Origin: Halorhabdus utahensis DSM 12940
GTDB taxonomy: Archaea > Halobacteriota > Halobacteria > Halobacteriales > Haloarculaceae
NCBI RefSeq assembly: GCF_000023945.1
Contig: NC_013158.1
Span: 2,604,001-2,668,000, forward strand
Length of the DNA: 64,000 nucleotides
Reading direction: 5' to 3'
Below the pieces are notes generated by a model that was not told where the DNA came from, made no database searches, and saw only the letters and a list, made by a program, of their open reading frames with translations. Of the stretch, positions 21,818 through 24,290 are shown one piece after another; within the stretch, counting starts at the first letter, position 1, and the number at the start of each line of letters is the position of its first letter. The translations under genes were made by a program, and so were the position numbers.

Positions 21818-22552
21818 ATGGACCGGGCGGTGTTGCGCGAGGACATGGTCGACGGGCTCCGCCACCGGCGTGAGAGCCTCCTCAGCGAGGCAGCCGTGGC
21901 AAGTGCGATGGGAACTGTCCCGCGCCACGACTTCTTCGATGACGACCGCACGGCGTACGCCGATCGCGAGACCGAGCGACTCGGAACGCGGGTTCTCGCA
22001 CCGAGTACCGTCGCCCGACTGTTCGACGCGCTCGCACCCGAACCCGACGATTCGGTCCTGATCGTCGGCGCAGGCATTGGATACACGGCCGCGCTCGCGG
22101 CGGAGATCGTGGGCCCCGAGCGCGTCCACGCCGTCGACATCACCCGCCGGGTGGTGTACGAGGCTCGCGAGAATCTCGCCACCGCCGGCTACGACGCCGT
22201 CCTCGTCGACTGTCGGGACGGCAGTGAGGGGCTGGCCGAGTACGCACCGTATGATCGGATTCTGCTCGAAGCGGCGGCAGTGAACCCCCCGCGCGCACTC
22301 CTTGACCAGCTGGCCCCCGACGGCCGACTGGTCATGCCCCTGGGAGCGCGTGACCAGACGCTCGTGACCGTCGAGGGCGGCGAAGTCTGTCAGCGCCACG
22401 GTGGTGTCGCCTTCGCCCCGTTGCTCGTCGAGGGCGAGCAAAGCGGTGCCGTCGAGCGCAACCGGACCCACCGCGAGGACCGCGAGCGCGCCCAGCAAGC
22501 CGCCCAATCGAGGACCGGCTGGGAACAGGACTGGATCGACTGGGACGGCTAG
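21818..22552 (+). CDS. Divergent protein-L-isoaspartate methyltransferase paralogue
   Basis: A 244-residue Rossmann methyltransferase similar to PCMT, with PRHDFFDDD, the SAM-loop VLIVGAGIGYTAALAA and the closing PDGRLVMPLG. The substrate motif QTIS.P of true PCMTs is replaced by LGTRVLAPSTVA, so it may act on another substrate. The C-terminus is long and charged, ending with GWEQDWIDW. The right end of the TnpB element lies directly after its stop codon. Confidence 0.8.
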   Translation: MDRAVLREDMVDGLRHRRESLLSEAAVASAMGTVPRHDFFDDDRTAYADRETERLGTRVLAPSTVARLFDALAPEPDDSVLIVGAGIGYTAALAAEIVGPERVHAVDITRRVVYEARENLATAGYDAVLVDCRDGSEGLAEYAPYDRILLEAAAVNPPRALLDQLAPDGRLVMPLGARDQTLVTVEGGEVCQRHGGVAFAPLLVEGEQSGAVERNRTHREDRERAQQAAQSRTGWEQDWIDWDG

Positions 22553-22555
22553 TAA

Positions 22556-22700
22556 ACTACCCCACCCTACTTCGCTCGGTCTGACGACCTCGCTTCGTTG
22601 AGGGTTCCGTCAGACGAGGTCTGACGACGTGGAGGCTGTGAGCCTCCACTGGAGCTTTCGCGTGGACTCCCGCTCTGGCCGGAATTTCCGGCAGGAGGTT
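22556..22700 (-). ncRNA. Predicted TnpB guide RNA (reRNA/omega RNA) scaffold
   Basis: On the minus strand the tnpB 3' end and element right end contain two perfect hairpins: 22629-22649 (9-bp stem GTGGAGGCT, 3-nt loop) and 22609-22625 (7-bp stem GTCAGAC, 3-nt loop). A conserved-looking tail GGGTGGGGTAGTTTAC follows. By analogy with known TnpB systems, the guide would be the 16-20 nt next to this tail, which here lies in the 3' end of the methyltransferase paralogue. The 5' boundary is arbitrary. Confidence 0.55.
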
Positions 22701-23889
22701 CATATTCTCCGTTCGCGTTCAACGTCCCGCGATTCAAGCGCACGCCTACGGGTGCGCCTCCGCCGTCCCCAGTTTGGTTACGACGGAGATACCGCAGTCC
22801 GATATTCTTGGCGGCGTTGTAGTCGGCGTGGTTCTCGTACCCGCATTTCAGGCACTCGAAGTCCTCGCTGTCGCGGTTGTCCGGGTGCGTGAACCCACAG
22901 TGTGAACAACGCCGTGAGGTGTTCTCCGGGTCCACCTGCTCTACATCGATACCGTGGAGTTCGGCCTTGTATTCGACGTACTCGTACAACCGCTCAAATG
23001 CCCACTTGTGCCCCCACGAGGCACCAGAGAGCCGGCCACGGATGCCGGTCAGCTCCTCAAAGGCGATGACCGTACAACCGTTCTCGGCGGCTTCTTCGAT
23101 GATACCGTTTGCAATCCGGTGGAGCATCATCTTGAACCGCCCCGTCTCTTTGCGCCCGACCGACTGGATGTTCTCGTGAGCGTGACGGCTTCCGCATTGC
23201 TGGAGTGAGGCGCGCCGTTTCTCGTACTCGCGCCGCCAGTGGTCGAACTCGTGACCGCTCCAGAACGTGCCCGTTGAAGTGACGGCGAGTTGGTTTACGC
23301 CGAGGTCAATGCCGAGGACTGTGCTGTGCCCGGTCGTTGCCTGTTTCGGCGTGTCAGACTCCACCTCCGCCTTTGTGCGGAGATGAAGGAACCACTCGCC
23401 GTCCTTGTTGTGAAGTTCCGCACTCGTCACCTCGTGATCGTCGCTGTCGAGATACCGGCTGTGGGGCGTGTCGCGGTCGTCGTCCGGCAGGACGTACTCG
23501 ACTTCGATACGTCCGTCTATCGTGGCGAGGGAAACGTGGTCGTCGTGGAAGGTCGCACACCGTTTGTCGTAGACGACAGTCGGCTTCGAGAAGTGTGGTT
23601 TGCCAGCGTACTCGCCCTGTTTCCAGCGGGCGACGACGCCCTGTACGGCGTCGGCGGCCTTGTTGCGAGCGTTCTGGACGAGATTCGCGTGCAACCGCGT
23701 TTGTTCTCGCACGTCGTCGTAGGTTTCCTCCTGCAACTGTGCCTTACTGGTCGTCTTGTAGTCGCCCTGCCAAGCGTGGTCAACGACGTAGTCGGCGGCC
23801 CACAGAAACTCAGCAATTGTCTCGCGGAGAAGTGCGGTGTCGTCACTGTCCACGTCGAGTTTCACGGGGACAGTGCGCCGCACCTCCAT
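22567..23889 (-). CDS. tnpB: TnpB RNA-guided endonuclease (stand-alone, IS1341-type)
   Basis: A 440-residue TnpB, the transposon-encoded ancestor of Cas12, guided to DNA by a reRNA (omega RNA) from its own 3' end. The RuvC-like catalytic residues appear intact: Asp195 in GIDLGVN, Glu in AFEELTG (about 278) and Asp356 in [10 protein letters not shown]. The zinc ribbon is C328-x2-C331 and C346-x2-C349. The last 60 residues (from GVRLNRG on) are Gly/Ser/Arg-rich because this DNA also encodes the reRNA scaffold. No TnpA gene accompanies it. The ATG at 23889 lies inside a hairpin. Confidence 0.93.
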
Positions 23890-23904: not shown

Positions 23905-23979
23905 CTGGTGATTTATTAGCATTTGGGAGAAAAGCCGACGACGGTACGTGGTTTGTGCCGGAGTTTTCGGCTTCTGCGT

Positions 23980-24210
23980 GCGGGCTTCGCCCGCTCGCAC
24001 GGCCCGAGGCGCGTAGCGCCTCGCTGTCGTCGGACTACGTCCGACTGCCTGCGGGACCTTCAGTCCCGCTCTGTCCTCTCCGGCCTACTCGCGTCGTCCT
24101 TCCGACTGGCGTCGGAACTCTTCTCTCTCTTCTCACGGACGCGAAGCGTCCGTTCGAATGGTCAGAGGGGGCTCCGGTCCCTCTCGACTTGAGGCCGGAG
24201 GCTCCGCCTC
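23980..24210. repeat. Array of eight short hairpins between tnpB and crcB
   Basis: Consecutive inverted repeats: 23980-23994 (6-bp stem, loop TTC), 24005-24023 (8 bp, GTA), 24029-24045 (7 bp, TAC), 24051-24069 (7 bp, 5-nt loop), 24100-24117 (7 bp, 4-nt loop), 24135-24153 (8 bp, GAA), 24164-24184 (6 bp, 9-nt loop) and 24191-24210 (5+3 bp). The stem sequences differ from each other, so this is not a simple repeat. No convincing gene lies in 23905-24290; open frames across it look like chance. It could be a structured RNA or the remains of IS ends. Confidence 0.7.
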
Positions 24211-24290
24211 GAAACTGCTGAGCTCCGGGACTCGGCGACCGCAGCGGCTGTATCGTAACCTAAGAGTGCCCACTTGGCGAAACCCAGCCA

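Follow-up and report, generated by a model that had tools for sequence, protein, structure and literature searches.

What produces a dense cluster of small hairpins in a short intergenic stretch beside a tnpB gene, when the hairpins have different stem sequences? The cluster lies in Halorhabdus utahensis, whose genome is a single contig of 3,116,795 bases, and was examined within a 64-kb stretch referred to here as the window. The first-pass annotation offered three possibilities: a structured RNA, accumulated IS ends, or a recombination site. The second comes closest, since the array appears to combine the left end of a TnpB element with small inserted hairpin elements. Our preferred explanation, to which we assign a probability of about three in four, is that successive, nested insertions of tiny non-autonomous mobile double hairpins have enlarged a TnpB element of the IS1341 type at its left end.

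The array and the element that carries it

A hairpin scan of positions 23960-24230 finds six perfect hairpins (23980-23994, 24005-24023, 24029-24045, 24051-24069, 24100-24117 and 24135-24153), with stems of 6-8 bp and loops of 3-5 nt. Two further hairpins, at approximately 24164-24186 (AGAGGGggC/GgtCCCTCT) and 24191-24212, are imperfect. The eight hairpins reported earlier are thus obtained only if the imperfect ones are counted, and the statement that all stems are perfect holds for six. Dinucleotide shuffles (n = 2000) give 0.44 hairpins on average and a maximum of 4, compared with 6 observed, and the array folds far better than shuffled sequence on both strands (z = -4.8 and -5.5). The scan finds no second cluster comparable to the array elsewhere in the window, and hairpin pairs number 3 in 240 kb, or approximately 1 per 80 kb, when a 240-kb genome sample is taken together with the window. 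No Rfam family matches the array region at gathering score, none of the phage records matches the array, and the plasmid records contain one weak match, to a related three-hairpin unit.

The array is positioned 5' of tnpB (22567-23889, minus strand) and before crcB (24291, plus strand). The tnpB gene belongs to the IS1341 group of the IS200/IS605 family and encodes a protein of 440 aa with the Pfam domains Cas12f1-like_TNB and OrfB_IS605 (PF07282, PF01385); relatives that are 57-92% identical occur in many haloarchaea. As in other IS200/IS605 members, there are palindromes near both ends of the element, and these are conserved in relatives. The right-end terminal palindrome (CCCTCAACG...AGTAGGGTGGGGTAGTTTAC; 22552-22607, minus strand) is common to the loci L012, L018, L129, L139 and L146. 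At the left end, the inner arm (CTCCGGCCT) occupies 24078-24086 and pairs with 24192-24200; the outer arm and element end (24192-24221; GAGGCGGAGCCTC, or CAGCAGTTTC on the minus strand) are kept in L139 and L192-L199. A TATA-like box (CTAATAAA; 23912-23919, minus strand), read from the sequence, precedes the tnpB ATG by approximately 23-30 nt, so that it separates the array, which is upstream of it, from the tnpB start. A similar A+T box is also present in homologues of the element.

No Y1 TnpA gene is found within the element, the two Y1 genes of the genome being located elsewhere (2256139 and 811474), which is consistent with a TnpB-only element. In the congeners G004 and G006, the PCMT gene runs straight to crcB, and both tnpB and the array are missing; thus, the two together form one insertion of approximately 1.7 kb. 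Judged from sequence, the array belongs to a TnpB-only element of the IS1341 type (IS200/IS605 family), of which it forms the left end, and is not a dedicated RNA gene.

Double-hairpin units and their insertion sites

When the genome is searched with the array as a query, additional arrays are retrieved beside tnpB copies, beside tRNAs and elsewhere; these too consist of perfect triloop hairpins, but their stems are different. The double-hairpin units generally measure approximately 45-60 bp and consist of two perfect stems of 6-10 bp, a conserved spacer of 4-11 nt and short tails; there are 129 distinct triloop pairs, in several spacer families. The covariance model of the R1 unit comprises HP1, a 10-nt spacer (consensus gaccrtgcga), HP2 and then gagcaga. 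This model finds R1 in 33 of 40 haloarchaeal relatives, with up to 24 units per genome, and under stricter filters in 16 of 21 genomes of the same order; 99 genomes from the rest of the phylum contain none. Most R1 units (92 of 111, judged with ten tnpB queries) lie more than 600 bp from tnpB or in a locus with no tnpB.

At tRNA loci (L002:1470-1620, L005:1360-1570, L102 and L110), a three-hairpin version of the unit is located 3' of tRNA genes or stop codons. With T-runs on either side of it in both strands (gtttttggtcc...ctttttcgag / cgacgatgaaaaaggtggt), it may be a two-way transcription terminator. At L134:2700-4300, pieces resembling the 3' part of tRNA-Leu are repeated with identical double hairpins between them, possibly as traces of integration at the tRNA.

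Eighty tnpB relatives were compared, and 72 were scored for hairpins at the left end (350 bp 5' of tnpB). At least two hairpins of at least 7 bp occur there in 9 of the 72, compared with none of 72 control stretches from the tnpB body. The first-pass annotation had proposed looking for the array beside other IS1341 elements; 63 relatives have at most one such hairpin, and IS1341 elements do not carry the array as a standard feature. The shortest clear left end in the family of the window is 58 bp, in L194 (Halopenitus persicus; ggtttcgaggcggagcctccggcctcaaggagcgagcaggccggagaggaagccgaca), where the same palindrome is short and uninterrupted. The left end in the window measures approximately 260 bp, and intermediates exist among relatives. 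L192 and L139 have the minimal form with two additions: the apex of the palindrome holds a TTCCGAC hairpin, and the GA^AGCCG site an R1 unit. L116 and L119 carry an R1 unit after CTCAAG. Both the window and L119 also have a further double hairpin, module A, in the 5' tail of R1.

Each of these additions can be located in the window. One R1 unit (CAG-HP-ggccgtgcga-HP-cgca) occupies 23973-24029 at the left-end GA^AGCCG, where 2 bp (GA) are duplicated, and scores 31.7 bits with the covariance model. Module A (GCGGGAC..GTCCCGC aggca GTCGGAC gta GTCCGAC; 24029-24070, minus strand) sits within the 5' tail of that unit, between two copies of a 5-bp repeat at 24024-24028 and 24071-24075 that reads CTGTC, or GACAG on the opposite strand. 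L139 provides the empty site, which matches the window at 49 of 50 bases flanking the insertion; the filled homologues L119 and L047 carry different stems. The single apex hairpin TTCCGAC/GTCGGAA (24100-24117) is present in L139, L192, L116 and L196 and not in L193, L194 and L195. A second R1 unit, module B, follows CTCAAG as an insertion in the left-end palindrome, again at its apex (24128-24191, 77.9 bits), and is present in L116, L119 and L079 and absent in L139, L129 and L192-L199. Both R1 units are on the strand of tnpB (minus). The triloop hairpin pair noticed earlier in the 3' end of tnpB is real: it is a double-hairpin insertion in the right-end palindrome (22608-22649, minus strand), present in L139, L146 and L018 and absent in L012, L129, L205 and L251.

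Module A is also found inside an outer stem, resembling a small cloverleaf, at L004:1499-1563, L140:1749-1815 and L019:2896-2960. This outer stem varies with both arms matched (CCCCGGCGT/ACGCCGGGG, CCCCGTCGT/ACGACGGGG and CCCGCCGT/ACGGCGGG).

Filled and empty sites beyond the window were paired by a flank-joining search, filtered against self-matches, followed by explicit comparison of each site. R1 insertions at GA^AGCCG that duplicate the two bases GA occur at the left ends of L010, L192, L139 and L147, which represent three kinds of left end, and at the right end of L129. Other double hairpins are bordered by repeats of CG (L219) and CGT (L238, with 50 of 50 flanking bases identical). Four lie within tnpB reading frames. 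That at L139:2261-2309 interrupts and frameshifts tnpB, with CGTT repeated on both sides; the downstream part of this tnpB is 95% identical to the TnpB of the window. The other three (L013:2584-2629, L253:2581-2626 and L251:2578-2619) are at one tnpB codon, after DYNA, with stems that differ and covary; the border repeat is CCG in L013 and L253 and CGG in L251, and the reading frame of L013 is ended early. In addition, the solo arrays G000:2529858 and G000:2412833 lie in inserts of approximately 480-585 bp that several congeners lack.

Comparison of the genomes shows that the double-hairpin units are inserted, with GA^AGCCG as a recurrent target of one family, that they have spread among haloarchaea with strict covariation of their stems, and that they often enter other hairpin elements and transposon ends. 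Border repeats differ in length from module to module (0-5 bp), so that more than one mechanism may be at work, and the short ones could be chance products in G+C-rich DNA. Outer stems around hairpin pairs are weakly enriched (10 compared with 4.4 at >=8 bp, against a control that shares homologous flanks), so that targeting of apices rests on the individual cases. Some units are kept at orthologous sites near gene ends (L055 and L056), and part of them may therefore have host roles.

Stem covariation and the nature of the hairpins

A covariation search had been suggested by the first-pass annotation, and the R1 unit gave a strong two-sided signal among haloarchaea. In the seed alignment, two-sided changes affect 10 of 23 pairs and amount to 26 cells, and G.U occurs in a single cell. 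Among 106 distinct matches, two-sided changes are seen in 22 of 23 pairs, with 367 cells compared with 86 after shuffling; cells here are sequences counted and not independent events, and fitting of the alignment to the model biases the counts in its favour. In the same matches, 94.5% of stem cells are paired, compared with 34-42% in slid controls.

How such complementarity is maintained bears on the first rival explanation, in which unselected hairpins are born and kept perfect by template switching during replication (quasi-palindrome correction and inversion of loops) where the DNA tolerates such changes. Perfect arms, two-sided changes and few intermediates would all follow, as would loops that are mutual reverse complements (GAA/TTC, GGA/TCC and GTA/TAC). 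However, discrete insertions of 45-60 bp with conserved spacers and tails, the recurrent GA^AGCCG target and the insertions into tnpB reading frames are left unexplained, and we regard this account of the array as unlikely. Template switching may nevertheless be the mechanism that keeps the arms matched. Since perfect arms could also arise by arm-to-arm templated repair, selection on structure is unproven. The earlier statement that structure is the selected feature has thus gained the stem covariation, and the pattern fits DNA hairpins better than RNA.

The second rival explanation, somewhat less likely still, is a structured non-coding RNA or a 5' regulatory leader of tnpB with hairpins conserved as RNA. 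The strong two-sided covariation is what an RNA would predict, both strands fold stably, and 11 of the 12 R1 copies located 5' of tnpB have its orientation. However, the composition of the hairpins and the absence of an Rfam match argue against it. Among 1658 stem cells there are 1596 Watson-Crick pairs, 19 G.U pairs and 43 mismatches; G.U pairs are rarer than mismatches within the same stems, and no special tolerance of G.U is visible. Triloops make up 159 of 172 loops, and are closed by a C-G pair in 157 of the 159. GNA (59 of 159) and TNC (64 of 159) together account for 77% of the triloops, compared with 14 and 12, respectively, of 162 background triloop hairpins (26 of 162 for both). On a given strand the two classes are about equally frequent, which means that the GNA loop favours neither strand. 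In DNA, minihairpins with GNA loops are unusually stable (Yoshizawa 1997, as summarised in PMC6479982).

The position of the array is a further argument against an RNA leader. Leaderless transcripts are usual in haloarchaea, and a leaderless tnpB transcript starting from the TATA-like box would exclude the array. Few G.U pairs, GNA loops on both strands, an array upstream of the box and the many units with no tnpB nearby all point to DNA hairpins, although the array may still be transcribed. The structured RNA first suggested is thus disfavoured, and the 63 of 72 relatives with at most one strong hairpin 5' of tnpB also speak against it.

Least probable is the proposed recombination or integration site for a site-specific recombinase, similar to the attC sites of integrons, which are single-stranded hairpins: hairpin arrays do adjoin tRNA genes, as integration sites often do, but the units themselves occur as insertions at numerous unrelated sites and no cassette-like content lies between arrays at the loci inspected.

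If the array is indeed a transposon end filled with mobile double hairpins, strong covariation, usually taken as proof of a functional RNA, would here come from mobile DNA, which would call for caution when archaeal RNAs are sought by covariation. Such insertions may also explain many of the odd hairpin clusters around haloarchaeal tRNAs and TnpB genes.

Possible mobilisation and related elements

In the mechanism that we propose, the form recognised would be a hairpin in DNA that is single-stranded or extruded, with C-GNA-G loops on either strand and few G.U pairs. A putative single-strand-specific enzyme, acting in trans, would recognise the hairpin shape and move the units. The Y1 transposase TnpA recognises hairpins at the ends of IS200/IS605 elements. 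However, the number of units and the number of Y1 transposase genes are uncorrelated (Spearman 0.06, 40 genomes), and one genome (G027) has 24 units without any Y1_Tnp gene, which argues against a resident Y1 enzyme as the mobiliser. Selection for the hairpin, arm-to-arm templated repair or the two together might keep the stem arms complementary, and repair by template switching would flip the loops too. If a single-strand mechanism recognises or regenerates the fold, the stem sequence would be free to vary. More tentatively, and at somewhat less than even odds, the units could represent a minimal mobile DNA found across haloarchaea and recognised by shape alone: C(GNA)G double hairpins with free stems that are target-specific (GA^AGCCG in one family) and self-nesting. 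If the preferred explanation holds, these very small mobile DNAs, whose targets are defined and many of whose insertions are mapped, would allow a direct test of hairpin recognition by shape, independent of sequence.

Judged by their descriptions, the nearest described relatives of the inserted units are the PATE and SMR elements. PATEs of Haloquadratum walsbyi lack a transposase and have palindromes like those of IS605-type elements (Dyall-Smith 2011, PMC3119063), and a terminal-only PATE of 52 bp was seen in this species (PMC3119063). SMR-A repeats are found inserted in palindromes near the ends of IS605-type elements and of PATEs; they measure approximately 110 bp, carry terminal inverted repeats, are near-identical from copy to copy and do not duplicate their target (PMC3119063). 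The units resemble both in being haloarchaeal, palindromic, without a transposase gene and inserted in IS605-type terminal palindromes. They differ from SMR-A, as described, in being double hairpins of 45-60 bp with stems that vary freely yet remain complementary, and from both PATE and SMR elements in having border repeats of 2-5 bp (GA, CG, CCG, CGTT and GACAG) in most clean cases and none in some. PATE-like inserts of several hundred bp, with the ends GCCAGAAAGCCCC / GGGGCTTTC.GGC and hairpins as cargo, are seen at L133:2590-3010 and L132:2760-3200.

Like REP and BIME sequences, the units are short, palindromic and intergenic, with short unpaired tails, and are often paired. Their 5' tails are mostly TAG, CAG, TCG or CCG, and are partly similar to the REP tags GTAG or CGTC (PMC3733652). 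Unlike REP sequences with a RAYT (TnpA-REP), the units do not follow Y1 genes in number; the IS200 type (1.1) is the one subclass of Y1 proteins reported from Archaea (PMC6006769). The double-hairpin elements of Allomyces mitochondria and the GC clusters of yeast mitochondria are also tiny hairpin units, probably mobile and present at many sites. These reside in fungal organelle DNA, unlike the haloarchaeal units, and no target duplication is reported for the Allomyces elements (PMC2800124). The resemblance is likely one of form only and convergent, and common descent is not claimed. No description of archaeal double hairpins of this kind was found in the literature, with subscription journals mostly outside the search.

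IS1341-type TnpB elements with sotRNA/omegaRNA are the hosts of the array, and in L016 a hairpin pair also falls in the 3' sotRNA region. In contrast, the array itself is at the opposite (5') end, outside that region. At L016:1223-1472, a match to Rfam sot2652 (RF02657, tnpB sense-overlapping RNA) contains a double hairpin, which suggests that units may enter omegaRNA-type transcripts too.
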